Of a DNA stretch of 64,000 nucleotides, positions 4,988 to 64,000 are shown in pieces. The notes below the pieces were generated by a model that did not search any database, was not told the DNA's origin, and worked only from the letters and a program-made list of their open reading frames with translations. Source of the DNA: Methanococcus maripaludis (lineage in GTDB: Archaea; AGJL01; Methanococci; Methanococcales; Methanococcaceae); assembly GCF_013760955.1 (NCBI RefSeq), contig NZ_JACDUL010000004.1, positions 124,001 through 188,000 of the forward strand, written 5' to 3'. Numbering within the stretch: the first letter of the stretch is position 1; every line of letters starts with the position of its first letter. Made by a program: the position numbers and the translations under genes.

Positions 4988-5133
4988 GTTTCCACCATAA
5001 ATTAAACTTCATAATCGTAAAAATCGATAATTTTCAATAATAATCCCAAATGTTAAAATAGCAATTAACTATTAGATATATTACTTCATATAAAAAGAGG
5101 TTCTTATTTAAAATATTTTTGGTTGGCGAGAAA

Positions 5134-5484
5134 ATGTATGAACAGGCTATTGTTATTCGAAATGATCTAAAAATGGGAAAGGGGAAAATGGCGGCTCAAG
5201 CCTGTCATGCATCGATTCAAGCTTTTTTACACGCTCAAAAAATAAGTTCATCTGCGGTTAGTGGCTGGATGAATGAAGGGCAGAAGAAAGTTGTTTTAAA
5301 AGTAAATTCTGAAAAGGAACTTTTAGAAATATTTAAAAACGTCAATATCGAAGGACTTCCATGCAGTTTGATAAGAGATGCTGGAAGAACCCAGGTTGAA
5401 CCCGGAAGTCTTACTGCTGTAGGAATTGGTCCTGAAAAAGAAGAAAAAATTTCAAAAGTTACAAAAGATTTAAAATTACTTTAA
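5134..5484 (+). CDS. pth2: Peptidyl-tRNA hydrolase, Pth2 type
   Basis: 116 residues. Pth2 cleaves the ester between peptide and tRNA on drop-off peptidyl-tRNAs. Family signatures are the N-terminal [20 protein letters not shown] block and the C-terminal [19 protein letters not shown] block. The ATG at 5134 gives the family-standard N-terminus. An in-frame TTG at 5119 would add five residues. The gene is divergent from tgtA across a 146-base AT-rich spacer holding promoters for both. Confidence 0.94.
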
Positions 5485-5619
5485 ATTTTAAATTTACAAG
5501 AGTTTTGAAAAATTTAAGCACTATTAATAAATATTTGAAAACAAAATAAATAACATACAAAATTTAAGTCTAATCGATTCTTTTATTCTTTAAGAGTTAA
5601 TTTTAATCTGGTGATAATT

Positions 5620-6855
5620 GTGGCTGTTAAAATTGCAGAGCTTACCTGCGGAGCAGAATACAGTGGTGTTCAAGCTGAAATTGAAAAAGCTGCGAAAGAA
5701 GTCGGTGGAGAAATTGTATATCCTGAAGTCGATTTAGAATATATCGATAAAGTTAACGACTATTTAGGATTTGAAGTCGCGTCTGCTAACTTAAAATTAA
5801 TGTTTGCAAGAGCAATGTCAATTATTGAAGGAAATACTGATGCAGAAGCAGTTTTTATTTCAACCTGCTTTAGATGTGCCGAAGGAGCCCTTGTAAGAAA
5901 TGAAGTTAGGAGATTGATACAGCAAAACACTGATTTACCGGTTGTTATGTATTCGTTTACCGAAAGAACGAAAGCTTCAGAGTTACTTACAAGAATGGAA
6001 GCACTTGTTACGATTGTTGATAAAAAAGCACTTCTTGCAAGGAAAAAACAAGATGGAGTAAGTTTAGGTCTTGATAGTGGTTCAACTACAACAAAAGCCG
6101 TTATTATGAAAGATAACGAGGTTATAGGAACCGGTTGGGTTTATACTAAAGATGTTATCGAATCTGCACAAGAAGCACTTGATGCTGCTTTGAAAGAATC
6201 CGGACTTAAAATGGAAGATATTGAAACAATTGGAACTACAGGTTATGGTAGACATACACTTGGAGACCACTTTAAAGCTGATTTAGTACAGGAAGAATTA
6301 ACTGTTAACTCAAAAGGAGCTGCATTTTTAGCAGGTGCCCAGAAAGGAGAAGCTACCGTGATTGATATTGGTGGAATGGATAACAAAGCAATTTCACTAA
6401 ATAATGCGATTCCCGATGGTTTTACAATGGGTGGAATCTGTGCAGGTGCAAGTGGTAGGTTCTTTGAAATCACTGCAAAAAGACTCGATGTTTCAATTCA
6501 GGAGCTTGGTGACATTGCAGCGACTGGCGACTGGCGAAATGTTATGATGAACAGCTATTGTATCGTATTTGGAATTCAGGATTTAGTAACTGGTCTTGCA
6601 GGAGGTGCTACACCAAATGACGTTGCCGCGGCTGCTGCCCACTCTGTTGCAGAACAGATTTACGAACAGCAACTTCAGGAAGTTGATGTACGGGATCCTT
6701 TAATTTTGGTTGGTGGAAGCAGTCTTTTAAAAGGAATGGTTCTTGCACTTGAAGAAATACTCGGTAAAAAAATAATAGTTCCAAAATATTCTCAATATAT
6801 CGGTGCAGTTGGTGCAGCATTGATCTCTTCAGGATATCGGAATCTCAAAAAATAA
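5620..6855 (+). CDS. Methanogenesis marker protein 15 (BadF/BadG/HgdC-type ATPase)
   Basis: About 411 residues. The C-terminal two thirds is an ASKHA-fold ATPase of the 2-hydroxyacyl-CoA dehydratase activator type: [13 protein letters not shown] (phosphate 1 loop), [33 protein letters not shown] with a cluster-type cysteine, and LVGGSSLL. Activators of this class couple ATP hydrolysis to electron transfer. The N-terminal ~140 residues are specific to this methanogen-restricted family, named methanogenesis marker 15; its role is unknown but its distribution tracks methane production. The GTG at 5620 lies four bases after GGTGAT; an earlier in-frame GTG at 5611 overlaps that site. It precedes nrpR by 36 bases. 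Confidence 0.85.
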
Positions 6856-33522: not shown

Positions 33523-34239
33523 ATGGATTTAAAAACATGGGAATCCTTTTACAATCAGATACTCGATGATTTTGGATACGGTAGTGCTGAAGACTTAAGA
33601 AGTGCAGAAATTCTTGAAGAAATGATTAAAAAATTCAAAAATAATGTAGATTTAAGCGAAATTTCCGAAAAAATCTTTGAAAAAGAAGTCTATATCTTTG
33701 GTGCGGGACCATCACTTAAAAAACATGTTTTAAAATTGAAAGAAACCATCAATCAAGACATTGCAATTATTGCAGCAGATGGCGCTACCAAAGCACTTTT
33801 AGAAGAAAATATAGTTCCAGATATTATTGTTTCGGATTTAGATGGAGATATTGATTCAATTTTAAAGAGTAACGATCTCGGTTCAATTGTTGTAGCCCAT
33901 GCTCATGGCGATAATATTGATAAACTTGAAAAATACATTAAATTACTAAAAAACATTGTAGGAAGTACGCAATTCCCGAAAAAATTTGATTTGCTTGTGA
34001 ATTATGGCGGATTTACTGACGGGGATAGATGTTGTTTTTTAGCAGAAGAATTCGGCGCTAAAAAAATGATACTCTGCGGAATGGACTTTGGAATCTATGT
34101 AACAAAATATTCTCGCCCAAATATCGAAAATGACGTTGAACTTGCCGATGAAGTAAAAGTGAAAAAATTAAAATATGCGGAAATGTTTGTAAATTGGCTT
34201 GTTAACAATGGAAAAAGCCCCATTGAGTTCATGGCCTAA
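33523..34239 (+). CDS. mptE: 6-hydroxymethyl-7,8-dihydropterin pyrophosphokinase MptE
   Basis: 238 residues. MptE (MJ1634 family, DUF115) is the archaeal, non-homologous replacement for FolK: it transfers pyrophosphate from ATP to 6-hydroxymethyldihydropterin in tetrahydromethanopterin synthesis. Diagnostic motifs are YIFGAGPSLKKH, IIAADGATKALL, IIVSDLDGD, VAHAHGDN and FTDGDRCCFLA. Start ATG follows GAGCGATAAC, nine bases after the nrdG stop, so the two are probably cotranscribed. Confidence 0.9.
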   Translation: MDLKTWESFYNQILDDFGYGSAEDLRSAEILEEMIKKFKNNVDLSEISEKIFEKEVYIFGAGPSLKKHVLKLKETINQDIAIIAADGATKALLEENIVPDIIVSDLDGDIDSILKSNDLGSIVVAHAHGDNIDKLEKYIKLLKNIVGSTQFPKKFDLLVNYGGFTDGDRCCFLAEEFGAKKMILCGMDFGIYVTKYSRPNIENDVELADEVKVKKLKYAEMFVNWLVNNGKSPIEFMA

Positions 34240-34339
34240 GTTTATTTCTTAGATGTTTTAAAAAACCATAGTTAAGTTTAAATAATATATATTTCAATAC
34301 TTTTTCTGATAATTCTATTTATTGCTCGTGGAGATATTT

Positions 34340-34630
34340 ATGTCAAATTCTTCGGAAAAAAGACTCGAAGAAATTAGAAAGCGAATTAACGAAATTGACG
34401 AACAGTTAATCGAATTGATTGCTGAAAGAACCAGTTTCGCACCTGAAATTGCTACACTTAAAAAGTCACTTGGAACCTGTGTCTTCGACCCAAAAAGAGA
34501 AGAATCAATCTGCGAAAAAACACGTTTGATGTGTGAAAAACACCATATAGAACCCGAAGTGGCCTTAAAAGTTATGAAAATTCTTATGGATTATAATAAA
34601 GAAGTCCAAAAAGACAGCATCGTAAGGTAA
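34340..34630 (+). CDS. Chorismate mutase, AroQ type
   Basis: 96 residues, all-helical. RLEEIRKRINEIDEQLIELIAERTSFA is the first AroQ helix with its catalytic arginine, and FDPKREESI carries the second Arg/Lys set. It converts chorismate to prephenate for Phe and Tyr synthesis. The ATG at 34340 follows GTGGAGATATTT. It stands between mptE and eS17 with promoter-length gaps on both sides. Confidence 0.88.
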   Translation: MSNSSEKRLEEIRKRINEIDEQLIELIAERTSFAPEIATLKKSLGTCVFDPKREESICEKTRLMCEKHHIEPEVALKVMKILMDYNKEVQKDSIVR

Positions 34631-34710
34631 ACTTAGCTAAATATATAAATTATAATTACAAATGTAATATGAAATGAAACAAGATTTATCCAACTCACAT
34701 AGGTGATAAC

Positions 34711-34902
34711 TTGGGAAGAATAAGACAAACATTCATCAAAAGAACCGGCGAAGAACTCATCGAGAAATTTGCAGATAAGTTCACAAGCGATTTTGAAGAA
34801 AACAAAAAAGCTGTTGAAGAAGTTGCAATGATCTCGACAAAAACATTGAGAAACAGAGTTGCAGGCTACGTTACTGCTAAAGTAAAAAAAATGAACGCAT
34901 AA
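34711..34902 (+). CDS. rps17e: Small ribosomal subunit protein eS17
   Basis: 63 residues with the eS17 pattern (GRIRQTFIKRTGEELIEKF, then VAGYVTAKVKK). A TTG start follows AGGTGATAAC. It lies ten bases before dapA, an arrangement I recall from other Methanococcales (MJ0244/MJ0245), so it is likely cotranscribed with it. Confidence 0.95.
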   Translation: MGRIRQTFIKRTGEELIEKFADKFTSDFEENKKAVEEVAMISTKTLRNRVAGYVTAKVKKMNA

Positions 34903-34912
34903 GGGTGTAATT

Positions 34913-35782
34913 ATGCAAGGTGTATATCCTGCGATTATTACTCCATTTAAAGACGGTAAAGTAGACTATGACGGCCTACAATCAAACCTTGACTTTCTAA
35001 TTGAAAATGGAGTTAGTGGAGTTATTCCTGTTGGAACGACTGGTGAATCACCAACCTTAACTCCATTAGAGCATGAACAGGTCATTGAAAAAGTTGTTGA
35101 ATTTGTAGACGGTCGTGTTGAAGTAATTGCAGGTACCGGTTCTAATTCAACTTCAGAAGCGCTAGAATTTTCTCAATATGCAGAAGATGTCGGCGTTGAT
35201 GGAGTGTTATTGATAACTCCATACTACAATAAACCAAGTCAGGAAGGCTTGAAAAGGCACTTTGGAGAAATCGCAAATTCAATAAACGTGCCTATCGTTC
35301 TATACAACGTTCCTTCACGAACTGCGCTAAACATAGAACCATATACTATTAAATACTTATTTGAAGAATACAGTAATATAACAGCCATAAAAGAAGCTAA
35401 TCCAAATTTATCTCAGGTTTCTGAGGTACTGGATTCGTGCAACATTGACGTACTGTCTGGAAATGATGAATTAACTTTGCCAATCATATCCCTTGGAGGA
35501 AAGGGTGTTGTCAGCGTTGTTGCAAATATTGCACCAAAAGAATTCGTTCAAATGGTTGATTTTGCAAATGCCGGCAAATTTGACAAAGCAAAAGAAATTC
35601 ACTATAAGTTGTTTCCACTAATGAAATTGATGTTTATCGAAACAAATCCAATACCGATTAAAACTGCGATGAACATGCTTGGAATGCCTTCAGGCGAGTT
35701 AAGGTTACCACTTTGCGAAATGGCGGAAAGCAATAAATCAAAATTGCAAAATGCACTTAACAACTTGGGCCTATTAAAATAA
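34913..35782 (+). CDS. dapA: 4-hydroxy-tetrahydrodipicolinate synthase
   Basis: 289 residues, TIM barrel of the DHDPS family. GTTGESPTLT binds pyruvate, LYNVPSRTALNI carries the proton-relay Tyr and the Schiff-base Lys is in TAIKEANPN. It condenses pyruvate with aspartate semialdehyde for lysine synthesis. Start ATG follows GGGTGTAATT. Part of the eS17-dapA-GatC-like gene string. Confidence 0.95.
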   Translation: MQGVYPAIITPFKDGKVDYDGLQSNLDFLIENGVSGVIPVGTTGESPTLTPLEHEQVIEKVVEFVDGRVEVIAGTGSNSTSEALEFSQYAEDVGVDGVLLITPYYNKPSQEGLKRHFGEIANSINVPIVLYNVPSRTALNIEPYTIKYLFEEYSNITAIKEANPNLSQVSEVLDSCNIDVLSGNDELTLPIISLGGKGVVSVVANIAPKEFVQMVDFANAGKFDKAKEIHYKLFPLMKLMFIETNPIPIKTAMNMLGMPSGELRLPLCEMAESNKSKLQNALNNLGLLK

Positions 35783-35799
35783 TCATAGTTCGTGATATT

Positions 35800-36039
35800 A
35801 TGATTAATGTTGAAAAAATTCAAAAACAAGCTGATGAAATCGTTGCTCAACTTTCAGAAGTTTTAGAAAACTTCGATCTCGAAACTGAGGAAGAGTATCA
35901 CATTCTCGAAACAAAAAATGTTCTCAGGGATGACGATGAAGCTTTTCTTGATGAATCATTCAAAAATGATGCATTAAATGTGGCGCCTAAAGTAAAAGAC
36001 GGATCAATTGTCGTTGAAAAAAGTAAATGGAGCCAATAA
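35800..36039 (+). CDS. GatC-like small protein
   Basis: 79 residues. The C-terminal half (NVLRDDDEAFLDE...ALNVAPKVKDGSIVVEK) follows the GatC pattern of LR-D(E/D) and N-AP-x-DG, seen in the small subunit of Asp/Glu-tRNA amidotransferases. The N-terminal helix is shorter than in bacterial GatC. If correct it stabilises GatA in Asp-tRNA(Asn) amidation. The gatA and gatB genes are not in the window. Start ATG follows CGTGATATT, 17 bases after dapA. Confidence 0.6.
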   Translation: MINVEKIQKQADEIVAQLSEVLENFDLETEEEYHILETKNVLRDDDEAFLDESFKNDALNVAPKVKDGSIVVEKSKWSQ

Positions 36040-36055
36040 TTATAATAACTAAAAA

Positions 36056-36175
36056 ATGGAGCGTGAGACTATAAAAAGAAGCTCAAGAAGATGGAAAAAG
36101 AAAGGACAAATGAGATGGAAACACTACAAAAAAAGAATTAGAAGAATGAAAAGAGAAAAAAGAGAAAATAAATAA
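36056..36175 (+). CDS. rpl41e: Large ribosomal subunit protein eL41
   Basis: A 39-codon gene, extremely basic, with the archaeal eL41 core IKRSSRRWKKKG...MRWKHYKKRIRRMKREKR. eL41 is the smallest ribosomal protein, a single helix at the subunit interface. The ATG at 36056 has no clear binding site. The conserved part begins only at codon 6, and a GTGAG stretch at 36063-36067 lies just before it (ATA at 36071), so the real start is uncertain. A T-run at 36196-36201 probably terminates the eS17-dapA-gatC-eL41 string. Confidence 0.8.
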   Translation: MERETIKRSSRRWKKKGQMRWKHYKKRIRRMKREKRENK

Positions 36176-36929
36176 TTAAGTAAATAATTATACTATTTTT
36201 TATGTTTTAAATTTTAATTTTTGTTAATTGTGAGAACTAGCTTTTTTTGATTTGTTAAAAAATAATTTATAAAAAAAGTTTTGGGGAGAATTTCTAATTT
36301 TTAGTTAGTAGTTTATTAGGGGGATTTTAGTGTATTACTATGGACTTTAAATTATATTTGGTAAATGATGTTATCGTTGGTTTAAGCTACACTCTCTATC
36401 GACCAGGGACACCACCCCTTTATCGACATATTACTCTTCTTTTTGGTTTATATTTATTCTTTTCCCCAAATAAACGTTAATAATAGCCATCTATATTTTC
36501 AATGGGTATTTATTTTAAATATTCAAAAAGTGAGTTCAAAAAAATTAATTGAGTTAAATTTACAACCATTAAAAAAATTTACAGATCAAAATATACATTT
36601 TTAAGATTTAAAATTAATTTACTGCCCAGAATAATTATCTCACATACTTTTGAATTCAATATACTTATTCTACATTACTTCGTAAAACTTTTTTAAAATT
36701 TAACCTGTGATCATCAACTTAAAAAAATCACTAAAAATACGCCCATCTTTTTTACAATTTTCAACATCATATTCATTCAAAAATAAATTTAATATTTAAT
36801 GGTAATCTAATTAGATTGCAGTTTATAAAAAAAAGTAACTGTTATATATTATTTAATTTTAAAGGGATATTATTTAAAATAGTCAAAATTGTGATTTTCA
36901 TAAATACTAAAACTAATCGGAGGCCAATC
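36176..36929 (+). other. Long non-coding spacer before the methyltransferase/radical SAM cassette
   Basis: A 754-base AT-rich spacer, long for this compact genome. It holds a T-run terminator near 36196, a TTTATAAAA promoter-like box near 36266, a GC-richer patch at about 36380-36425, a perfect palindrome at 36804-36817 and two TATA-like boxes (36822-36830, 36841-36850) for the downstream cassette. A 46-codon frame with ATG at 36340 and stop at 36480 overlaps the GC patch, but its ribosome site is too far away. I see no tRNA, C/D sRNA or insertion sequence end in it. Confidence 0.6.
36804..36817. promoter_or_regulatory. Perfect palindrome, candidate operator
   Basis: AATCTAATTAGATT is a perfect 14-base palindrome placed directly upstream of TTTATAAAA (36822) and GTTATATATT (36841). 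At that distance from a TATA box it would suit a dimeric regulator acting on the methyltransferase/radical SAM cassette. The AT-rich context raises the chance of coincidence. Confidence 0.4.
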
Positions 36930-37586
36930 ATGTCTGAAAACAGGAAAAAATTCGACAAAAAAGGTGCCAATAACATGGATGAGATTTCAAAAACACTATT
37001 TGCACCAATATACCCTGTGATCGCAGAAAATATTATTAACCGTTTTAAAATAACCAACGGCACCTGCGTAGACATTGGAAGTGGTCCCGGAGCGCTATCA
37101 ATTGCGTTAGCAAAGCAGACCGATCTTTCGATAATAGCTTTGGACTTTTCTAAACACATGAACGAAATAGCCTCGAAAAATATTGAAGATGCTAACCTAA
37201 ACGATCGAATCCAAATTGTTCAAGGGGATGTACACAATATCCCAATTGATAACGATTATGCGGATTTAATCGTTAGCAGAGGTTCAGTATTCTTTTGGAA
37301 TGATATTGCCACATCATTTAGAGAAATTTATCGAATTCTCAAGCCAGGTGGAAAAACTTACATTGGTGGAGGATTTGGCAACAAAGAATTGCGTGATTCA
37401 ATTTCAGCCGAGATGATACGCAAAAACCCAGATTGGAAAGAATTCAACCGAAAAAACATATCCCAAGAGAACGTTGAACGGTTCCAAAATGTGCTTGATG
37501 AAATAGGTATTCAATCTTACGAAATTATCCTTGAAGACGAAGGATTCTGGATTATAATCTCAAAAACCGGTCGAGGGGAGATCTAA
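36930..37586 (+). CDS. Class I SAM-dependent methyltransferase
   Basis: 218 residues. VDIGSGPGALSIALAKQ is SAM motif I, IALDFSKHMNEIA motif post-I and DYADLIVSRGSVFFW the motif II region; RILKPGGKTYIGGG is motif III. The fold is a small-molecule (UbiE-like) methyltransferase. The ATG at 36930 follows CGGAGGCCAATC; in-frame codons upstream belong to the leader. Arginine is largely CGT/CGA/CGC/CGG here, unlike neighbours. The stop and the start of the radical SAM gene overlap as TAATG, so the two products are translationally coupled and probably act on the same compound. Confidence 0.85.
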   Translation: MSENRKKFDKKGANNMDEISKTLFAPIYPVIAENIINRFKITNGTCVDIGSGPGALSIALAKQTDLSIIALDFSKHMNEIASKNIEDANLNDRIQIVQGDVHNIPIDNDYADLIVSRGSVFFWNDIATSFREIYRILKPGGKTYIGGGFGNKELRDSISAEMIRKNPDWKEFNRKNISQENVERFQNVLDEIGIQSYEIILEDEGFWIIISKTGRGEI

Positions 37587-39349
37587 TGAAATGTACAGTA
37601 TGTGAAATCGGGTGTGATATCCCAGAAGGGCGTTACGGTCGATGTAATATGTATACAAATCAAAACAGTAAGATAATCGAGAGGTTTCCTGAATCTTACC
37701 TTACAGTACTCCCCATTACAATTGAAACGATGCCCATGGTTCATTTTGCACCAAAAAATAAATTTTTACAGGTGAACACTGTTGGATGTAACTTTAAGTG
37801 TCAAGGATGTATCTCAGAAACTTTAACTTCAAATGTTGATGCATTAGCTGGTGCCCTCACTAAAGCTTCAGCCGCAGATATCGTACATCGTGCAAAAACT
37901 GAAGAATGCCAAGGTATTGTTTTTTGTCTTAATGATCCTGCTGCATCATATTATACATTTTTAGCCCTGGCAAAAGAAACGAAATCGGCTAATCTTTGGG
38001 TTGGATGTTCAACAAACGGTTATTTCACTGAAAAAGCCCTCACCACAATAATCCCATATCTTGATTTTGTCAATATTGGCTTGAAAGGTTCATCAGATGC
38101 ACGTTATAAAGAATGCGGTGCAAAATCTGCAGCTCCCGTGTTTCGAAATATTCGCATGCTTCACGAAGCAGGAATACACGTGGAAACCTCTGCAATGTAT
38201 ATAAATGGCAATGATGAAGAGATATTAAAAGCCGCAAAGGAAGTGGCATCTGTTTCAAAAGATATACCATTACAGGTGATGCGTTTTGTACCTTTTGGAG
38301 AAGCAAAACCTGAACTAGAACCCACCATAAATAAATCCGAACAAATTGTAGGCCAGTTACGCTCCATTCTAAACTACGTCTACCTTTTTAATTCACCAGG
38401 AACTGAATATTTAACAACTGCCTGCCCAATCTGTGGGAATGAAATCATTAAACGTGAATTCTACGGGCCTATGGGATGCCGCACAACTGATTCTTGCGAA
38501 AACGGTAAGTGTTCCTGTGGATGGCTGGCGCCAGTAAAAGGGCCCATCAATAGTGAACAGTTTACTGAATACGGTATGCTTGGAGGATACCGGACTACAC
38601 GTGCTATTGAAATGGCCCATGCCATTCTGATCACACTCGGAATCCGGGATAATGAAGAACTTGGAGAGATTCTTGGGGATATCATTAAAGAAGACTTCAT
38701 TCGAGGGTTGCATGACCGTATTCAACAGATCAATTCTTGGATCGGACTTATCAACGATCTCGCTATGCGAACTGGGCGGGAAAAAGAAGGTAGTGAACTT
38801 ATCACATTCATTCAAGAGCGTGTTGATAAGATATCTGAAGGTAGCAAACTGGTAAAATCACGTCCTTCTGTTTACTATTCAATGGGTTATCCATTATTTG
38901 CTTTGAATGCCGAGCGATTCGAAACCAATCTTGTAGAATCTGTTGGAGGCATTTGCGTTAATAAAAGTCTTACACGCAAAGGTAAACCTGGTGTTAATAT
39001 CTCGGTAAATGAAATAAATGAACTCGGCCCTGATATAATGTTTATATCAGGATTTCTCTCTTCACCGGCTTCTGACTATATTCAATACTGTAGCAGGCAC
39101 GGAATAGATAATAAAGCCGTTCAGATGGGAAATATATTTAATGTGCCTGCAGGGTGGGATTTTGGAAGTCCCAGGTGGATACTCGGATTCATGTTCCTTG
39201 CAAACGCCATTCATCCAGAAATATTCTCTTTCGACTTGGAAACTGAACAAAAAGAGTTCTATAAACGTTTTTATGGCATTGATGCAGAGAACGTTGTTAC
39301 AAACCGTGACTTTTCAAGACCGGCATTAACTACCCCAAAAGAAATATAA
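37586..39349 (+). CDS. Radical SAM enzyme fused to a chelate-binding-protein fold
   Basis: 587 residues. Residues 1-315 resemble AmmeMemoRadiSam/PflA-type radical SAM enzymes: an N-terminal cysteine cluster (C3, C6, C10, C20), the CX3CX2C motif at C68, C72, C75, and a C-terminal knuckle region (C280, C283, C298, C304, C309, C311). Residues about 325-587 look like the class III substrate-binding fold of siderophore/B12-type ABC transporters: a long linker helix, then RPSVYYSMGYPLF, VESVGGICVN, LGPDIMFISG and a final LETEQKEFYKRFYG helix. There is no signal peptide, so this domain is cytoplasmic. Codon use (many CGT/CGC) suggests acquisition. Substrate unknown; a metal chelate or tetrapyrrole is inferred from the fold. 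Confidence 0.75.
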   Translation: MKCTVCEIGCDIPEGRYGRCNMYTNQNSKIIERFPESYLTVLPITIETMPMVHFAPKNKFLQVNTVGCNFKCQGCISETLTSNVDALAGALTKASAADIVHRAKTEECQGIVFCLNDPAASYYTFLALAKETKSANLWVGCSTNGYFTEKALTTIIPYLDFVNIGLKGSSDARYKECGAKSAAPVFRNIRMLHEAGIHVETSAMYINGNDEEILKAAKEVASVSKDIPLQVMRFVPFGEAKPELEPTINKSEQIVGQLRSILNYVYLFNSPGTEYLTTACPICGNEIIKREFYGPMGCRTTDSCENGKCSCGWLAPVKGPINSEQFTEYGMLGGYRTTRAIEMAHAILITLGIRDNEELGEILGDIIKEDFIRGLHDRIQQINSWIGLINDLAMRTGREKEGSELITFIQERVDKISEGSKLVKSRPSVYYSMGYPLFALNAERFETNLVESVGGICVNKSLTRKGKPGVNISVNEINELGPDIMFISGFLSSPASDYIQYCSRHGIDNKAVQMGNIFNVPAGWDFGSPRWILGFMFLANAIHPEIFSFDLETEQKEFYKRFYGIDAENVVTNRDFSRPALTTPKEI

Positions 39350-39456
39350 TTCCAAATTATCTTTTTTTTAAATAACGCTGTTTAAACCAAATATTAAAGT
39401 CAATTTAAAACAATAAATACAACTAAAAAAGACAGTACGGTAAATTATTAAAAAAT

Positions 39457-40101
39457 TCATCTATCAAAGCATGCATTTTCAAGTTCTGCCAATGTATTTA
39501 GGTTTATAAATATATTGCATGATTCATCGATTTTTTCAGCATCCACGTACAATGGATTCAATTCATCTATCAAACGCCTTATAGGAAATGATCTATTCTT
39601 TTCAAGCATTTCTTCGACGATTGTTCCAAGTACATTTACGGATGAAATGTGATATAGTGAAAAAAGTGGCTCAATGAACCCATTTTTATGTTTTGGAACT
39701 ATACAATCATTCCCATTTAATTCTGCTTCTTTTATGCAGTCAAGTATGTTTACGATAGATTCTTCGGTAATAAACGGCATGTCACATGGAACCAAAAAAA
39801 CCCACTGTGAAGTAGTATTTAACATTCCAGAAAGCATTCCAATCAATGGACCCATTTCTGGGACAAAATCCCAAGTAATCGTTTGATGGTACTTTTTATA
39901 ATAATAAAGCTGTTTTTCAATTTCGCTTTCAGATTTTTCCATAAATCTAGGGTTTCTAAATACTGTAACAAATGGAATCTCCATATCCAATAGCATATCC
40001 GCAATATTTTCTATCAAATATTTATTGCCAGACTTTCTAAAGGATTTTTCGCCACCCATACGTTCTGCTTTTCCGCCAGATAATATAATCGCTGATATCA
40101 T
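39457..40101 (-). CDS. mobA: Molybdenum cofactor guanylyltransferase MobA-like
   Basis: 214 residues. SAIILSGGKAERMGGEKS is the nucleotide loop; PCDMPFI and PLIGMLSGML are family blocks. MobA attaches GMP to molybdopterin to make the guanine dinucleotide cofactor used by formate dehydrogenase and formylmethanofuran dehydrogenase. The ATG at 40101 follows GGGACACTT; a longer in-frame extension would overlap the promoter and leader of the FKBP gene. moaA lies 0.9 kb away and moeA at 61674. Confidence 0.88.
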   Translation of the reverse strand: MISAIILSGGKAERMGGEKSFRKSGNKYLIENIADMLLDMEIPFVTVFRNPRFMEKSESEIEKQLYYYKKYHQTITWDFVPEMGPLIGMLSGMLNTTSQWVFLVPCDMPFITEESIVNILDCIKEAELNGNDCIVPKHKNGFIEPLFSLYHISSVNVLGTIVEEMLEKNRSFPIRRLIDELNPLYVDAEKIDESCNIFINLNTLAELENACFDR

Positions 40102-40137
40102 AAGTGTCCCGATTTTTAAAACATGATTTTGACAAGA

Positions 40138-40146
40138 TTTATATAC
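40138..40146 (+). promoter_or_regulatory. TATA box for the FKBP gene
   Basis: TTTATATAC, about 70 bases before the ATG at 40211, predicts a transcript start near 40168 and thus supports the later start codon. Confidence 0.5.
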
Positions 40147-40210
40147 TCTTTTATTTATACTTGTTGTGATAATCGTTGCGATTGGATTTATTGAAACAAA
40201 TGGTGAAATA

Positions 40211-40888
40211 ATGGAAAAAGGAAAACTCGTAAAAATTTCATACGACGGATATGTTGAAGAAAACTTGTTTGATACAACAAACGAAGAAACAGCTAAAGAA
40301 CAAGGAATTTTCAATCCAAACATGGTTTACGGTACAGTTACCGTATCCGCTGGCGAAAAAATGTTAATCCCTGGACTCGACAACGCTATAATGGAAATGA
40401 ACGTTGGAGAAGAAAGAGAACTTGATTTAGCTGCTGAAGAAGCTTTTGGTAAAAGAGACCCTTCACAAGTAAAAATCGTTCCAATGAAAGAATTCAAAAA
40501 ACACAACGTAAACCCAATCCCAGGAATGCCTGTAAACATAGACAACAAAATCGGAAAAGTTGTTAGCGCAAACGGTGGAAGAATATTGGTTGACTTCAAC
40601 CACGAACTTGCAGGAAAAGCTTTAAAATACAAATTAAAAATCGAAGAACTTGTAGAAGCTCCTGAAGCTATTGCTTTAGAAGTTGCAAAATTATTCATTC
40701 CAAGAATTTCAGAAGAAAACTTAAAAATAACCATTGACGGCGAAAACGTAACATTGGACCTCCCTGAAAACACGGCATTCATGCAAAACCTCCAAATGGT
40801 TAAAATGGGAATTGCAAACGAATTAATCAAAAGATTAGAAGCTAAAAAAGTTTCATTCATTGACAACTTCGTTAAAAAAACAGAATAA
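40211..40888 (+). CDS. FKBP-type peptidyl-prolyl isomerase, long archaeal form
   Basis: 225 residues. GKLVKISYDGYVEE...DTT opens the FKBP domain and IPGLDNAIMEMNVGEERELDLAAEEAFGKRDP is its core, with the inserted IF chaperone flap of SlyD-like proteins (about 85-140). A C-terminal domain of about 80 residues marks the long archaeal FKBP. It catalyses proline isomerisation and acts as a folding chaperone. The codon choice (AAC, GAA, GTT) looks like a highly expressed gene. Start ATG follows GGTGAAATA. Confidence 0.92.
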   Translation: MEKGKLVKISYDGYVEENLFDTTNEETAKEQGIFNPNMVYGTVTVSAGEKMLIPGLDNAIMEMNVGEERELDLAAEEAFGKRDPSQVKIVPMKEFKKHNVNPIPGMPVNIDNKIGKVVSANGGRILVDFNHELAGKALKYKLKIEELVEAPEAIALEVAKLFIPRISEENLKITIDGENVTLDLPENTAFMQNLQMVKMGIANELIKRLEAKKVSFIDNFVKKTE

Positions 40889-41017
40889 TTAAAATTAAAT
40901 AATCTTCTCTTTTTCACGTTTTATTCGGGTCATTTTAAATAGTAACTTTTTTAAATTACATGATACATAGTTAGTGTAAACACTACCCCTTAACCCCTAT
41001 TGCACACTGTGATAACC

Positions 41018-41911
41018 ATGGAAGACCGATATGGAAGAGAAATCCGTTCTTTTAGACTTTCGATAACTCCAAAATGTAATTTAAAATGCTTTTACTGCCA
41101 TAAAGAAGGTAGAAATGAGGAGCACGGCAAATTAATGAGTGCTGATGAAATTGGAAAAATTGTAAAATCTTCATTAGAATTTGGAGTTAGAAAAATTAAG
41201 ATTTCTGGTGGAGAACCACTTTTAAGAACTGATTTACCAGAAATTATTGAAAATATTAAAGATGACCAGATTAAAGATATTTCACTAACTACAAATGGGA
41301 TATTGCTTGAAAAATATGCACAAAAATTAAAAGATGCCGGACTTGATAGAGTAAACGTGAGTTTAGATACGCTAGATCCTGAACAGTACAAACAAATTAC
41401 TGCTGGCGGAAACATTGAAAGCGTAAAAAAAGGAATTGAAAAAGCTATCGAAGTCGGTTTAACACCATTGAAAGTTAATTTTTTGGCAATGGACTGTACA
41501 ATAAACCAACTTCCAGCTATCATGGATTACTGCAGAAAAATTGGTGCAATACTTCAGGTAATTGAATTTATTCCAATGGAAGAGGAGTTAAAACATCACC
41601 ACATAGATGTCGTTCCAATTGAAGAAGAAATTGGGAAAAAAGCAGATCAGGTATTTACGAGAAAATTCATGCAAAATCGGAAAAAATATATTGTTGATGG
41701 ATTAGAAGTTGAATTTGTTCGGCCAATGGACAATACCGAATTTTGCGGACACTGTACAAGAATAAGACTTACTTACGATGGTTATTTAAAACCTTGTCTT
41801 TTAAGAGACGATAATTTAGTGGATGTCGCAAATCCGCTTAGAAATGGAGAAGATATTAGAAAATACTTCATAAAATGTATCGAAGAAAGAGAACCTTTCT
41901 GTAAAGCTCAG
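41018..41911 (+). CDS. moaA: GTP 3',8-cyclase MoaA
   Basis: 298 residues. The N-terminal CNLKCFYCHKEG is the radical SAM CX3CX2C site; the C-terminal CGHCTRIRLTYDGYLKPCL binds the second 4Fe-4S cluster (CX2CX13C). ISGGEPLLR and SLDTLDPEQY are SAM contacts. It makes the first intermediate of molybdopterin from GTP. The ATG at 41018 follows GTGATAACC. The stop codon follows at 41912-41914. A cupin gene follows four bases later. Confidence 0.94.
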
Positions 41912-41918
41912 TGAAATA

Positions 41919-42419
41919 ATGAAAACTGCAGAATATTTCATTAAAAAGCTTGGTTTAGAAAAACATCCTGAAGGGGGCTTTTATAAACGGATATATCAAT
42001 CTGACGAAGTAATTTCAAAAGATAAGTTGCCAGAACGATACAATTCAGACCGGTTCTATTCTACTTCGATATATTATCTTTTAAATGGAAATGATGTTTC
42101 AAAATTCCATCGTTTAAAATCTGATGAAATATGGCATTACTATTTTGGAAGTCCTGCGATTATTCATATTATTGATGATCTTGGAAATTATTCTTTAAAA
42201 AAATTAGGGCCCAATCTCGAAAAAAGTGAAAATTTTCAGGTGATTATCCCTAAAAATTCATGTTTTGCTGCAGAAGTTGTTGAAAAAAATTCTTTTGTAA
42301 TTGTTGGATGTACTGTATCCCCGGGTTTTGATTTTGAAGATTTCAGACTTGCTTCAAAAGATGAACTATTAAAAAAATATTCTGAGCATGTTAATTTAAT
42401 TAAAAAATTCTCTGATTAA
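41919..42419 (+). CDS. Cupin superfamily protein, DUF985
   Basis: 166 residues, a single cupin (YML079w-like). KLGLEKHPEGGFYKRIYQS, STSIYYLLNGNDVSKFHRLKSDEIWHYYFG and GCTVSPGFDFEDF are the family blocks; FHRLKSDEIWHYY carries the putative ligand-site histidines and Glu. Function is unknown; yeast and plant relatives bind small molecules. It is four bases after moaA and probably cotranscribed. Start ATG follows GTGAAATA. Confidence 0.87.
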   Translation: MKTAEYFIKKLGLEKHPEGGFYKRIYQSDEVISKDKLPERYNSDRFYSTSIYYLLNGNDVSKFHRLKSDEIWHYYFGSPAIIHIIDDLGNYSLKKLGPNLEKSENFQVIIPKNSCFAAEVVEKNSFVIVGCTVSPGFDFEDFRLASKDELLKKYSEHVNLIKKFSD

Positions 42420-42490
42420 TTTTAATAAGATTACAGTAGTATCTATCATTCAGATAAAAAATATTCTTAACTAGGCGAATGGGTGAAAGT

Positions 42491-44077
42491 TTGAAATCGG
42501 TTCTAAAAAAAATAGGATGTATCCTATTTGGAAGTACACTATTATCTACGTCCTTTATGGCAGTTTATGCCCTCGAAAAATACGGGAATGTAAATGACTT
42601 TTTAGATGATGATTTGGTAAAGAACGGAAACCCCGACGTTTATATCGTAGTTGGAGAAAATTCTGCTGCACTGGATGTAACTTCAGCAAATCAAATCTCT
42701 GCAAAAATTGGAACTCTTACTTACTCTGAAATAGTTATTGAAGAGGAATCTACCGTAGAATACCAAATTATTGGGAAATCTGAAAGTATTAATTTACTGG
42801 ATGGGACTGACAAATTAGATAGTACCGGTACCGAAAAATCCTGGATTTTAGTTACTGCAGCCGATGATAGTTATTCTAACTATTTTAACAATGATGAAGG
42901 AAATTCTTTTTCATATTCTGGATTTTCAGAAGCAGATCAGACAAAATCGCTTGGAGAATTTGGATATTTACTTGAATTGGATGATATGGATCCAGAAAAT
43001 CATTTTGAATCTGATGATGATGCTACAGAAATAATATTTACAAGAATTATTGATTCAAACAAAAATGTAAATTCTCAAACGTTTGATATTGGAAAAGACA
43101 TGGTTTACGCATCAATAATTTATCCAAATCAGGTTTCGGCATTTAAATTATCAAAAGAACTAAAAGAAGGTTATGAAATTCCATTTTTAGGTGACAGATA
43201 CCGTATTGTAAAAATTGATGAAAATGAGGGTATAATCTACCTTGGAACCCCTTCATACGATGGAACTATTGAACAGAACGAATACATAAGTTTGGGGGAG
43301 TATCAAGTAGTTTTGGGTGAAATTTTAGAAAGCGAAGATAAATATAGCGTTCAAATTTCAGTATTAAGAAATGGTAAAATAATTAAAGAACATACTGAGA
43401 TTTTAAGTTCAGATAAATCATTTTCATTTATTGCTGGCGGTATTGGAGTTACAGTTCATGATGTATGGTTAAATAGTGCAGCAGATACTGGTTATGCAGA
43501 TATCACGATATGTAAATCCATACTTGAATTAGAACTTGGGGAAGAATACATTGATGACTGGGAAGTAAGAACTGTTAACAATAACGGCGGAACTATTGAC
43601 TTTTTAAAAACTTATGAAGACAGTGCAGTTGGAATTGCTCTTGTGTACACTGGAAGTGACGTTGAAAGAATAAAGGATGGGGACAAGCTTGAAATTGCAG
43701 ATTACGTAAAGTTAGTATTTGACGATGAAGACGATCTTGATAAAATGATTGCCCAATATAAAGCTGAAAGAACAGTAACTACCGGATCTACTGGTGGAAC
43801 CGTCATTACACAATCCGGAAAAGTTCCGGAAGTGATTCTCGATATTGAAATCGAACTTGATGAAGCGGATAAAAATTTAATCCTCATTGGTGGCCCTGTT
43901 GCAAACAAACTGACAGAAGAGTTGCAAAATGATGGAAAAATCAATATTGACAATGAAAGCCCGGCAACCGCAATATTGGTCGAAGGTGCTGCAAATGGAA
44001 ACGACGTCCTTGTAGTTGCAGGAGGAGATAGATACAGTACAGAAAGTGCAGTACTATCCATCATAAATCTCATTTAA
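42491..44077 (+). CDS. S-layer family protein (paralogue)
   Basis: About 528 residues. A signal peptide (KSVLKKIGCILFGSTLLSTSFMAVYA) is followed by the Methanococcus S-layer N-domain (DVYIVVGENSAALDVTSANQISAKIGTL). It ends with the S-layer C-domain (NLILIGGPVANKLTEEL...VLVVAGGDRYSTESAV). The protein is acidic and wholly extracellular. The TTG at 42491 is preceded by GGGTGAAAGT; an ATG at 42479 would contain that site. It is not the abundant S-layer gene by context; it may be a minor or condition-specific wall protein. Single gene with AT-rich flanks. Confidence 0.85.
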   Translation: MKSVLKKIGCILFGSTLLSTSFMAVYALEKYGNVNDFLDDDLVKNGNPDVYIVVGENSAALDVTSANQISAKIGTLTYSEIVIEEESTVEYQIIGKSESINLLDGTDKLDSTGTEKSWILVTAADDSYSNYFNNDEGNSFSYSGFSEADQTKSLGEFGYLLELDDMDPENHFESDDDATEIIFTRIIDSNKNVNSQTFDIGKDMVYASIIYPNQVSAFKLSKELKEGYEIPFLGDRYRIVKIDENEGIIYLGTPSYDGTIEQNEYISLGEYQVVLGEILESEDKYSVQISVLRNGKIIKEHTEILSSDKSFSFIAGGIGVTVHDVWLNSAADTGYADITICKSILELELGEEYIDDWEVRTVNNNGGTIDFLKTYEDSAVGIALVYTGSDVERIKDGDKLEIADYVKLVFDDEDDLDKMIAQYKAERTVTTGSTGGTVITQSGKVPEVILDIEIELDEADKNLILIGGPVANKLTEELQNDGKINIDNESPATAILVEGAANGNDVLVVAGGDRYSTESAVLSIINLI

Positions 44078-44169
44078 TGTCATTTTAAATTATTTCTTTT
44101 TTCAAATTTGTTCGAAATATCGTGTTCAACAGATAATTTTTTAAAACTTAAAACCATATTCATAGTGAA

Positions 44170-44194
44170 AAGTATGGCCGTAATACCTATACTT
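44170..44194. promoter_or_regulatory. Inverted repeat upstream of XRE-cupin regulator
   Basis: AAGTAT, 13 bases, ATACTT, starting 54 bases before the regulator ATG. Its location fits an autoregulatory operator for the XRE-cupin protein that heads the acyl-CoA ligase operon. Evidence is only symmetry and position. Confidence 0.35.
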
Positions 44195-44223
44195 CTTAAA
44201 AAACTGGAAATTAGAGGATAAAA

Positions 44224-44802
44224 ATGGCTGAAAAAAACCACGTCGGTATTAAAATTAAACAGACACGAGAAAGACAGAATATGTCCATCGAAGAACTTGC
44301 AAAAGCAAGTAACAGCAGTGTAAATCTTATCGAAAGCTTGGAAAATGGAGATTTAGTTCCGTCATTAACCCCTCTTTTTAAAATTGCAAGAGCCCTTGGC
44401 GTTAGACTCGGTACATTTTTAGACGATGCTCCTCAGAGCGGCCCTGTAGTAACCAAATCTGGAAGCTCAGAAAGTATTGTCAGATTTTCAGGAAAAATTG
44501 ATGGAAGTAAAGACAGTAAATTGGATTTTTACGCACTTGCCAGTGAAAAACAGGACAGGCATATGGAACCATTCATAATAGACGTTTATCCAATTGAATC
44601 TGAAGAATATAAGCTCTCTTCACATGAAGGAGAAGAATTCATCTATGTAATGGGTGGAGAAATTGAAGTATTGTACGGAAAAGAAAAATACCTTCTTAAA
44701 CAAGGAGACAGCATATACTACGATTCAATCGTTCCACATGACTTGCATGCATTTGGAAAAGATGTTGCAAAAATTCTTGCAGTAATATACTCACCATTTT
44801 AA
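44224..44802 (+). CDS. XRE-family regulator with cupin sensor domain
   Basis: 192 residues. Residues 8-62 are a helix-turn-helix of the XRE type ([32 protein letters not shown]). Residues about 110-190 form a cupin ([21 protein letters not shown]...[21 protein letters not shown]) with metal-type His/Glu. Such proteins sense a small ligand and control the adjacent genes. It heads an operon with the thioesterase and acyl-CoA ligase. Start ATG follows GAGGATAAAA. An inverted repeat lies in its leader at 44170. Confidence 0.88.
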
Positions 44803-44823
44803 TCCTTATAAATCGTGATAATA

Positions 44824-45231
44824 ATGTTTAAAACAACCGTAACCCCCCGATTTGGCGATGTTGATGGATTAAAACATGTAAACAACATCGTACCTGCAAT
44901 TTGGTTTGAACAGGCCAGAAATCCATTATTCGAAATATTTGTACCAGACTTTGATTTAAGCTACGAAAAATGGAATTTGATAATGGTAAGAACGGAATTT
45001 GACTTCGTAGGCCAGATGTATCTTGGAATGGATGTTGAAATTAGATCATATATCTCAAAAATTGGAAACTCATCATTTACAATGTACCAGGAAGCATGGC
45101 AAAACGGCAAATTGGCAGTAAAAGGAAAAGCAGTTGCTGTTCACTATGATTTTATAAATCAAAAGTCAGTTCCAATACCGGATTCCATTAAAGAAAAGTT
45201 AAAAGAACACTTTATCGAAGGAATCGATTAA
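44824..45231 (+). CDS. Acyl-CoA thioesterase, hotdog fold
   Basis: 135 residues, a 4-hydroxybenzoyl-CoA thioesterase-type hotdog domain. RFGDVDGLKHVNNIVPAIWFEQARNPLF is the catalytic helix with the Asp-His pair. It would hydrolyse acyl-CoA to acid and CoA. The ATG at 44824 follows CGTGATAATA. It sits between the regulator and the acyl-CoA ligase and runs counter to the ligase, so the two may set the acyl-CoA level. Confidence 0.85.
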   Translation: MFKTTVTPRFGDVDGLKHVNNIVPAIWFEQARNPLFEIFVPDFDLSYEKWNLIMVRTEFDFVGQMYLGMDVEIRSYISKIGNSSFTMYQEAWQNGKLAVKGKAVAVHYDFINQKSVPIPDSIKEKLKEHFIEGID

Positions 45232-45252
45232 TACCACAATTAGAGGTACATT

Positions 45253-46902
45253 ATGCTTTTTACAAACGATACTATTGGAGCACTCTTTGAAAAGCAGGTT
45301 CGAAAAGACCCTGAAAGAGAATTCATGGTATATCCAGATAGAAATCTTAGATTAACATATAAAGAATTTGACGATAGAGTAAATATGCTCGCAAAAGGTC
45401 TTCTTGAAATTGGTATAACCAAAGGAGACCATGTTGGAATATGGGCTAAAAACGTTCCAGACTGGCTCACATTCATGTTTGCTACTGCAAAAATCGGAGC
45501 AGTTTTGGTTACCGTAAACACTGCATACAAAAGCCACGAACTTGCGTATGTCCTTAAACAGTCAGACATGAAAGCTCTTGCAATTATTGACGGATTTAGG
45601 GATACAAATTATATCGATATTTTGTATGAACTCGTTCCAGAATTAAAAACATGCCAGAGAGGCTGTTTAAACAGTTCGGAGTTTCCATTCCTAAAAAGCG
45701 TAATTTACGTTGGACAGGAAAAACACCGTGGAATGTACAACACGAACGAATTAATGCTTCTTGGAAAACACAACCCTGATGACGAACTCTTAAGGATTAA
45801 AAAAGAGTTAAATTGTGATGATGTAATCAACATGCAGTACACTTCAGGAACTACAGGCTTTCCAAAAGGAGTTATGTTAACACATAAAAACATCTTGAAT
45901 AACGGGTTTTACATTGGCGATAGGCAGAAATTTACTGAAGAAGACCGTTTATGTATCACTGTACCGCTTTTCCATTGTTTTGGTATTGTTCTTGCGGTTA
46001 TGGCAATTTTAACCCACGGGGGAACAATGGTAATGGTGGAGCTTTTTGACCCGCTTTTGGTTCTTGCAGCAGTTCAAAAAGAAAAGTGTACTGCCCTTTA
46101 TGGGGTACCAACCATGTTTATTGCAGAATACAGCCACCCGATGTTTGAAATGTTTGATCTTTCAAGTCTTCGTACTGGAATTATGGCAGGATCCACACCA
46201 CCAATAGAAGTCATGAAAAAAGTGGTTAAAGACATGTATATGACTGGAATAACGAGTGTATACGGTCTAACAGAAGGATCCCCAGGATTTACCCAAACCA
46301 GTATTGATGACTCGTTAGAAAAAAGAGTAAAAACTGTTGGAAGGAAATTACCCGAATGTGAAGTAAAACTTGTAGACCCTGAAACTGGCGAAACATTAGG
46401 CCCTGGAGAAATTGGGGAAATATGCTGTAAAGGCTACAATGTCATGAAAGGATACTATAAAATGCCTGAAAAGACTAAAGAAGTAATCGATGAAGATGGC
46501 TGGCTCCACAGTGGTGATTTAGCTACGGTAGATGAAGAAGGATACTATTCAATTGTGGGCCGTATCAAAGAAATGATTATACGTGGTGGGGAAAATATCT
46601 ACCCGCGAGAAATTGAAGAATTTTTATACACCATGCCCGGAATTAATGATGCACAAGTAATTGGAATTCCTGATGAAAAATACGGAGAAATTGTTGGTGC
46701 ATTTGTAATCCCTAAAGAAGGTTATGACATTAGAGAAGAAGACGTTAGAGACTTTGCACTTGATAAAATTGCAAGGTATAAAGTTCCAAAACATGTATTT
46801 GTAGTAAAAGAATTCCCTATGACTGCAAGCGGAAAAATACAGAAGTTTAAATTAACTGAACTTGCAGTTGAACTCTTAAAAAAAGAGAATGAAATATTAT
46901 AA
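45253..46902 (+). CDS. AMP-forming acyl-CoA synthetase
   Basis: 549 residues of the ANL superfamily. [18 protein letters not shown] is the P-loop (A3), YGLTEGSPG motif A5, [41 protein letters not shown] in outline A7-A8, and the A10 lysine is in [10 protein letters not shown]. The sequence is closest in character to medium/long-chain fatty acyl-CoA ligases. Archaeal membranes lack fatty acids, so the substrate may be an exogenous or branched-chain acid. Start ATG follows AGAGGTACATT. Last gene of the three-gene operon. Confidence 0.9.
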
Positions 46903-61673: not shown

Positions 61674-63524
61674 TTAGCATTCGTAAATGATTTTTCCAGT
61701 ATCTTTTGACTTTTTAAACGGAAGTTCTTCTTTTTTGAGTGTTTCTATGAATTTAATTATATCTTCGTCGTATAATTTTTCTTTAGGAATTAAAAGGTCG
61801 TAATTTTCATCCGCAATTGGGAGAAATTCTAAACCATAATGGTCAGAAATCGTACTTATTCCAAGGCCGATCTGGGCCTTACCCATTGAAACTGCTGCGC
61901 CAACTGCGGAATGAGTTTTTGCTTCGATATCGTACCCATTTAATGAATTTTTATCGATATTATTTTCTTTTAAAAATTTATCAAAGAGTATTCTTGTTCC
62001 AGAACCTTTATTTCGATTAATTATTTTATAATCCCGAATTTTTTCGATCAAATCTTCCATTGAGTTTATTCCAAGCTCCTTTTTAAACATGAAACCCTGT
62101 TCACGAACATAACCTCTGACTAAAACAGCATCAGTTACATTGTATTTTTTTAGATATGAAATATTATATTCTCCAGTATTGTCTAACAGGTGAATTCCGG
62201 CAAGATCTGCTTCTTTTCTTTTTACTGCCATTATTCCACCAAGAGATCCAGTATTTACAGTTCTTGCAAGAATTTGACCTTTTCGTAAAATCCTATCGAT
62301 TCCAACACAGTGGCTTCCAATAATATTAAGTCCAATTCGAATATCACCAAACATATGAACATCAAATATCTCATCTTCAACAATTTCCCTGTTTTCTGGA
62401 ATTATAATATATCCATCAGCATATGCAAGTGATGTTATTGCCTCACTTCCTTTTAAAACAGGATATGCGCCGTAACCATCTTTTCCCCGAATTATCGAAA
62501 CTGGAAGGTATTCTTCCCTTCCTTTAGCAGACATATATCTATTATAAACTTGTGCCCGCATTGTTTTTCCTTTTTCATTGAATAATACATCAAAAATAGT
62601 TAAACATGATGTTGGGTAGCCTGGAAGGCCTACAACCAATTTTTTACCAATTCTTCCGATAATTGTTGGTTTTCCGGGCTTTATTTTTATTCCATGTACC
62701 AAAATTTCCCCGCCAAGCTCTTCGATTGCAGTGCTCGTTAAATCACCGACCCCTGCAGAAGTCCCACCACTTAAAAGAATTACATCTTCATTCATTGCTT
62801 TCTTTAGTTTTTCCATTAAATCTTCTTTATTATCTCGCACAATTCCATAAAAATTAAAATTCCAGCCTTTTTCTAAAATGGATGATGCTATCGTATAGGT
62901 ATTCACGTCGTAAATTTTGTATGGTTCTAATTCATCTTCTGGACTTATCAATTCATTTCCAGTTGATAAAAGCCCAATACTTGGATTTTTAAATACTTTC
63001 AACTTGTTTTTACCTACTGCGGATATTGCACCGATATCTCTTGGAGAAATAACCGTATTTTTTCTCATTATGAGTTCTCCAACCATTATATCGTTTCCAC
63101 ATGGCTGAATATTTTCATGAGGAGAAACTGCTTTGTAGAGTTTTACAGAATTTTCTTCAATTTCTGCAAATTCAACCATAACTACCGCATCTGCACCTTT
63201 CGGAAGAGGGGCTCCTGTCGCAATCTCCATACACTGCCCTGAAACTAATTCTAATTCAGAATTTCCTCCTGCACGTATTTTATCAATTATTTCAAGCGTT
63301 ACGGGCTTATCTTCTTCTGCCTCATAAGTATCTTTTGCTCTTACCGCATAGCCATCCATCCTTGAACGATCAAATGGAGGAACGTCTACATTTGAAACTA
63401 TATCTTCTGCAAGTATTCTTCCAGGAAGTTCAAAAAGACTTACTTCTTCCGTGCTTAATTCATCTAAAAGAGTTTTTACAACTTCTTTGGCATGCTCAAT
63501 TGTGCAAAGTTCTAGGTATCTCAA
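61674..63524 (-). CDS. moeA: Molybdopterin molybdenumtransferase MoeA with C-terminal PBP-like domain
   Basis: 616 residues. Residues 1-400 are Moe[56 protein letters not shown] and [16 protein letters not shown]. It inserts Mo/W into molybdopterin-AMP. Residues 410-616 form a periplasmic-binding-protein-like domain ([53 protein letters not shown]), as in many archaeal MoeA fusions; it probably binds molybdate, tungstate or a ligand. A TTG start follows GGTGATATT. Complements mobA and moaA elsewhere in the window. Confidence 0.92.
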
Positions 63525-63551
63525 AATATCACCTAAATAATTAAAAATAAT

Positions 63552-64000
63552 TTAAAGTATTAAATCTAAGTCTCTACCACATTTTGGACATTTTGGTGTT
63601 TTTGATGATGTATCAATATGTAATTCTGGTTTTTGATATCCAAAACGGTCTACAACAATAGATTTGCATTCCGGACAGTAAGTGTTGTATCCTGCACCAA
63701 ATGGAACGTTTCCCGCATAAACATAATGCAATCCTGCATTTAACGCCATGTCTCTTGATTTTTTAATTGTATCCATGCTGGTAGATGGTACAGATGTTAG
63801 TTTGTAGTGTGGATAAAATGCAGTAAAATGAAGTGGAGTTTCTACCCCAAGTTCATCTTTTACAAAATTAATTATGAATTCAATATCTTTTGGATTATCA
63901 TTATATGTTGGAACGATTAAATTTGTAATTTCAACGTGTATTCCGAGTTTTTTTGCTAAAATACACGTTTCAAGAACAGGTTCCAATTCTGCAAGGCATA
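63552..64000 (-). CDS. AmmeMemoRadiSam system radical SAM enzyme, 5' end beyond window
   Basis: Only the C-terminal ~149 residues are in the window; the frame runs open past 64000. Visible parts are PLHFTAFYPHYKLTSVPST, GLHYVYAGNVP, then the C-terminal knuckles YCPECKSIVVDRFGY and PKCPKCGRDL. These match the PflA-like radical SAM enzymes that pair with AMMECR1 and Memo. The CX3CX2C site lies outside. AMMECR1 is at 60959 with moeA between them. Confidence 0.87.
   Translation of the reverse strand, partial: CLAELEPVLETCILAKKLGIHVEITNLIVPTYNDNPKDIEFIINFVKDELGVETPLHFTAFYPHYKLTSVPSTSMDTIKKSRDMALNAGLHYVYAGNVPFGAGYNTYCPECKSIVVDRFGYQKPELHIDTSSKTPKCPKCGRDLDLIL

Follow-up and report, generated by a model that had tools for sequence, protein, structure and literature searches.

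A methyltransferase and a radical SAM/half-binding-protein fusion associated with metal-chelate importers in methanogens

The window, a 64,000-nucleotide stretch of a Methanococcus maripaludis contig, carries a two-gene cassette in which a class I methyltransferase is followed by a protein joining a radical SAM module to half of a substrate-binding protein (SBP) (Table 1). The initial annotation had placed both genes correctly: the methyltransferase stop and the fusion start overlap by one base in TAATG, the A being common to both, which supports translational coupling. The ATG start of the methyltransferase agrees with the N-terminus of a crystallised homologue (MSENKKKFDKK), and a longer TTG open reading frame from 36816 is therefore spurious. 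When the window genome (G000) is compared with a close, M. maripaludis-like relative (G004), dN/dS is 0.059/0.42 and 0.071/0.57 for the two genes, and both are under purifying selection.

Table 1 Features of the cassette and its surroundings, in window coordinates.
Feature	Position	Strand	Description
Inserted segment	36606..39454	.	~2.85 kb; site empty in G001 and G004; boundaries approximate; blastn synteny
Upstream region	36649..36929	+	Also found upstream of the pair in G004; presumed promoter region
Near-palindrome	36802..36819	.	GTAATCTAATTAGATTGC, one mismatch; possible regulator site; in G004 as GTAATCCATTTAGATTGC
Methyltransferase (MTase)	36930..37586	+	Class I SAM-dependent methyltransferase, 218 aa, ATG 36930 to TAA 37586
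Fusion	37586..39349	+	Radical SAM/half-binding-protein, 587 aa, ATG 37586 to TAA 39349
Radical SAM module, ~residues 1-320	37586..38545	+	Cys conservation in 16 homologues; TIGR04337 match 1-310
Half class III SBP, ~residues 381-577	38726..39316	+	Linking helices and C-terminal lobe; hhalign, Foldseek
MobA-like NTP transferase	39460..40137	-	Native neighbour downstream of the insert; PF12804 8.5e-26
moaA	41000..41914	+	Native neighbour; TIGR02668 419.6 bits, cutoff 325

Blastn synteny showed that window positions 36605 and 39455 are adjacent in genome G001 and nearly so in G004. The flanks (34001-36605 and 39455-46000) likewise join without a break in G001 and almost without one in G004, and the pair is therefore an insert of about 2.85 kb. 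It came with upstream DNA of its own, as window positions 36649-39368 align with positions 10846-8092 of the G004 locus at 84.5% identity over 2.76 kb, including about 280 bp upstream of the pair. The 754-base spacer first noted in front of the cassette is real, but native intergenic DNA, also present in a relative, makes up only its 5′ part (to about 36605); the DNA from about 36649 accompanied the pair. The near-palindrome in this region was rejected as a genome-wide operator, since it showed no enrichment over the control in the genome. On the other side of the insert, the MobA-like protein has its best NCBIfam matches to MobA, below cutoff. The place of the pair beside mobA and moaA is that of an insertion and may be a coincidence.

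Codon usage also sets the pair apart. Its arginine codons are 31 CGN to 7 AGR (23/4 in the fusion, 8/3 in the methyltransferase) versus 123/432 in the other open reading frames of the window (Fisher p=1.4e-13). The GC contents of the two genes are 0.400 and 0.378 against a mean of 0.334, and their GC3 values are 0.31 and 0.35 against 0.25. The initial annotation had described the neighbours as using almost only AGA/AGG, which is overstated for this comparison set of mechanically called reading frames, spurious ones included (78% AGR), but true of clear genes such as those of the genome's own importer operon, most of which contain 0-1 CGN codons. The G004 pair is biased likewise (30 CGN/6 AGR) amid AGR-using importer neighbours, and the pair of a more distant genome, G009, has 2 CGN/30 AGR, the same AGR preference as its surroundings. 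The foreign codons and the insertion into an otherwise syntenic site bear out the laterally acquired look of the cassette.

The methyltransferase has an ordinary class I fold. It matches PF08241 (1.8e-21, 77 bits, cutoff 21.2) and is well conserved among 12 homologues; its predicted model (pLDDT 91.3) superposes on PDB 3dlc with a TM score of 0.96 in Foldseek. 3dlc is MMP1179 of M. maripaludis, a structural-genomics entry for an unnamed methyltransferase without assigned function. It is 89% identical to the window protein and identical at 217/218 residues to the G004 one, which is thus the same protein.

The N-terminal module of the fusion belongs to the radical SAM superfamily, with a CX3CX2C motif (Cys68/72/75) that is invariant in 16 homologues and a PF04055 match of 1e-14 (55.5 bits, cutoff 29.5). 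Further cysteines are located at the N-terminus (Cys3/6/10/20) and near the end of the module (Cys280/283/309/311). The radical SAM enzyme of the AmmeMemoRadiSam system (TIGR04337, COG1180-like) shows full-length homology to residues 1-310, with the same N-terminal cysteine pattern and CX3CX2C motif. The fusion differs from it in scoring below the family cutoff of 220 bits (window protein, 107.5 bits; Methanohalophilus homologue, 116.4 bits), in its half-SBP C-terminus and in its importer neighbourhood. MEMO and AMMECR1 partners were not recognised among the identified neighbours. The minus strand at 63393-64000 encodes a radical SAM paralogue that runs off the window end; it lacks the binding-protein lobe and shares 29% identity with the N-terminal part of the fusion.

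The C-terminal half resembles the class III SBPs of chelate importers (Peripla_BP_2; 4hn9, 4pag, MolA/HI_1472 3psa, CeuE 4ino), by profile and by fold, in the C-terminal lobe and the linking helices. Aligned with the SBPs of the importer operons, it covers SBP positions 156-354 of 382 (hhalign 99.9%); Foldseek returned 4hn9 and 4ovk (TMt ~0.5), and the solved relatives agree. Unlike these SBPs, however, the fusion lacks the N-lobe sheet, is joined to an enzyme and has no evident signal peptide, its N-terminus (MKCTVCEIGC) showing no signal-like stretch by eye. The model (pLDDT 89.4, pTM 0.89) contains no strands in residues 304-427, where this sheet is expected, and the PF01497 score (17.5) lies below the gathering threshold of 27.5. 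The protein was correctly annotated as a radical SAM/chelate-binding fusion, but profile, fold and missing strands limit its chelate-binding part to the linking helices and C-terminal lobe of the two-lobed class III SBP. The radical SAM domain may stand in for the missing N-lobe.

No known operon of this composition had come to mind in the initial annotation; in fact, the composition recurs widely. In G004, the same pair (87-89% identity), with its own upstream region, lies inside a FecB/FecCD-type chelate-importer operon ordered OMT-SBP-SBP-[MTase-fusion]-SBP-SBP-FecCD-ATPase. In G009, it sits between two importers, and in Methanosarcinaceae a five-gene order, SBP-MTase-fusion-FecCD-ATPase, is nearly invariant. 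The gene-neighbourhood search thus recovered a conserved pair with a linked chelate importer, yet in the window genome the corresponding importer operon, with two OMT genes, five SBP genes, FecCD and ATPase, is on another contig (G000:C1:242-10802) and does not contain the pair. The operon is also present in G001 and G003, with the pair not within it. Since the pair is inside the operon in G004 and outside it in G000, it has moved relative to the importer. Judged by gene order, the window copy represents a portion of the SBP-MTase-fusion-importer arrangement that stands apart from the rest, and that the pair belongs to an importer system is well supported.

Some variations were seen around these operons. 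Four Methanococcus genomes (L075, L076, L077, L033) all have the OMT-SBP array-FecCD-ATPase arrangement, with three to five SBP genes depending on the species. At the G009 locus, a DUF2119 gene (L034:8458-9177) lies between the fusion and the second importer, and its called reading frame overlaps the fusion end. A ModA-like protein near this locus was discarded as strong evidence, as only Pfam SBP_bac_11 matched, with no NCBIfam model. Related proteins of ~390-440 aa without a Pfam match occur in two importer loci (L043:5148-6329 and L050:4569-5882), the L043 one also having no NCBIfam or PDB match. A Methanospirillum MAG contig (L051) carries two fusion genes (1083-2837 and 4518-6197) separated by about 1.7 kb, of which the second has diverged strongly.

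Full-length homologues of the fusion were found at more than 40 loci. They are present in 3/36 genomes of the phylum search and in 35/238 genomes of the class around G104, 34 of these in one family. A scan of genome contigs gave 18 loci with an alignment as query and nothing with a single sequence. Among the named loci are those of Methanohalophilus, Methanosarcina, Methanolinea, Methanospirillum, Methanolliviera, Desulfobacterota, a Deferribacteraceae MAG and Thiobaca, with Methanomicrobiales among the members. Near some bacterial fusions the methyltransferase is missing; TonB-dependent receptors adjoin the fusion in L055 and L047, while the L050 locus has an esterase (PF00756) and DUF364. 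In the phylogeny, the closest grouping of the Methanococcus pair is with that of Methanolinea (98/93), where an OMT gene is likewise part of the locus. A topology uniting the Methanococcales in one clade is not rejected (p-AU 0.156), which leaves separate acquisitions unproven; lateral spread of the pair is likely. Neither the operon nor the fusion has a name or description in the literature searched (most subscription journals being outside its scope), and a proteomics study of M. voltae growing on pyrite discusses other radical SAM proteins without mentioning the operon. The fold types are known, while the fusion and the operon are apparently undescribed.

The link to a particular metal comes from Methanosarcina. 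A palindrome, TTATGTT-N6-AACATAA, precedes the operon there, directly following a TATA-like stretch and about 53 bp before the SBP gene; it is exact in four loci and has one mismatch in a fifth. Six Methanosarcina genomes contain 22 such operator sites, against 2 for the reversed control, assigned to fusion genes (6), fmdE/fwdF operons (7), anf/vnf operons (3) and other FecB/FecCD-type genes (5), with 1 unassigned. The modABC genes adjoin some sites, though not in a clearly downstream position. In addition, six genomes have a second fusion copy, in 6/6 cases divergent from nifH-like and VNFD genes (V-nitrogenase), and each intergenic region contains the operator with at most one mismatch, a result reached by 3/1000 shuffles. 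These six copies, which have no recognisable methyltransferase partner nearby, are one inherited arrangement and not six events. Across L145-L155 and L157-L161 (Methanosarcina genomes G535-G565), the operator ties fmdE/fwdF, anf/vnf and FecB/FecCD-type genes into a candidate Mo-related regulon.

Because this operator is common to Mo-related and V-nitrogenase genes, the pair probably helps cells to use chelated Mo, W or V. The same metals are indicated by DUF364, whose neighbourhoods reportedly contain transport genes for Mo, W and V as well as iron (PMC2954201). The operator was found neither at the window pair nor at non-Methanosarcina loci, and the metal of the window pair is thus assigned by homology only; carried over from the relatives, Mo, W or V is the likely one.

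Importers of the FecBCD and BtuFCD types are known with linked chelate-processing enzymes, such as ferric-siderophore reductases or esterases and those of anaerobic heme degradation. In the present system, too, an importer is encoded together with an enzyme whose substrate would be the chelate taken up. Here, however, the enzyme is a radical SAM/half-SBP fusion together with a class I methyltransferase, and no such enzyme appears in the literature searched. We tentatively favour, at somewhat less than even confidence, a role of the pair as the cytoplasmic enzymes of metal-chelate import that attack the ligand and release the metal, most likely Mo, W or V. The ABC importer, made up of a FecB-like binding protein, a FecCD permease and an ATPase, would take up the metal complexed with a small organic ligand. 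In the cytoplasm, this chelate would be held by the half-SBP lobe of the fusion and faced by the radical SAM domain, which would replace the missing N-lobe in the cradle. Radical chemistry and methylation, with the ligand as the methyltransferase target, would then destroy the affinity for the metal and free it. In the window genome, the pair would probably act in trans with the importer on the other contig. This model is favoured by the conserved operon, the homology of the fusion C-terminus to the operon SBPs, the TonB-dependent receptors of bacterial members, the esterase and DUF364 of L050, and the Methanosarcina operator and V-nitrogenase linkage; the fusions with no MTase nearby and the hints of iron and nickel given below weigh against it. 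A bolder proposal, which we regard as doubtful, is that the fusion represents a new intracellular chelate-processing class, a radical SAM enzyme with a borrowed importer SBP lobe that sandwiches a Mo, W or V chelate between lobe and radical site and belongs to a so far undescribed molybdophore/vanadophore pathway of anaerobes, one also serving the Methanosarcina V-nitrogenase.

To our knowledge, how strict anaerobes acquire Mo, W and V, where sulfide makes these metals scarce, is poorly understood, and no archaeal molybdophore pathway was found in the literature searched. Given the conserved operon, the known structure of the methyltransferase and two genetically tractable hosts (M. maripaludis, M. 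acetivorans), the question can be addressed directly by experiment. The operator seen in Methanosarcina would in addition define a metal regulon comprising alternative nitrogenases, formylmethanofuran dehydrogenase and chelate transport.

The main rival gives the same two enzymes a role in ligand synthesis: they would build or finish a secreted metallophore that the linked ABC importer takes up again, the half-SBP lobe holding an intermediate. The extra methyltransferases of some loci (OMT in Methanococcus and Methanolinea, a second MTase in G009) and the DUF364 genes agree with such a pathway. However, most operons contain two enzymes only, and the mapped neighbourhoods yielded no recognisable precursor-peptide gene or exporter; we therefore judge biosynthesis unlikely, if the most serious competitor.

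Import and release of iron on a siderophore-like ligand, in place of Mo, W or V, is less likely and has a low probability in our estimate. It would fit the FecB/FecCD family membership, the esterase and TonB receptors of the bacterial loci, and the annotation of MMP1176, numbered near MMP1179, as a putative iron transporter subunit (PMC2723118). Against it, the Methanosarcina regulon joins alternative nitrogenases with formylmethanofuran dehydrogenase, and a Fur box search gave nothing convincing.

Lower still we place a role in modifying a corrinoid, heme or nickel chelate after import. The best-scoring models for the permease and ATPase are BtuC/corrinoid and F420-0 ones, though below cutoff, with the B12 transporter models far below (BtuC 239 bits, cutoff 461); CeuE (Ni) and heme-binding proteins are among the fold matches, and a possible hint of nickel is the NikR gene (L046:10067-10489) that follows one Methanosarcina operon at a distance of about 2.4 kb. 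The regulon, in turn, indicates Mo, W or V, no cobalamin riboswitch was found in the loci, and no heme-degradation radical SAM model occurs among NCBIfam matches up to E 0.1. Of the roles initially proposed, handling of a tetrapyrrole, metallophore or other cofactor, the metal-chelate link and the metallophore are supported, with Mo, W or V as the best-supported metal, while nothing positive was found for the tetrapyrrole.

That the window pair is a non-functional relic moved off its operon, as its foreign codons, its insertion away from the importer and its rarity in the phylum search might suggest, is very improbable given the low dN/dS against G004, the intact frames, catalytic motifs and upstream region, and a same-type importer elsewhere in the genome. 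An anti-phage reading, raised by mads and viperin matches, was rejected as generic methyltransferase and radical SAM similarity.

Finally, near operator sites in L148 (716-3158), and similarly in L151, L153 and L154, a CpaM-like methyltransferase lies beside a NikA/CntA-like binding protein (matches below cutoffs), forming another methyltransferase-transporter pairing.
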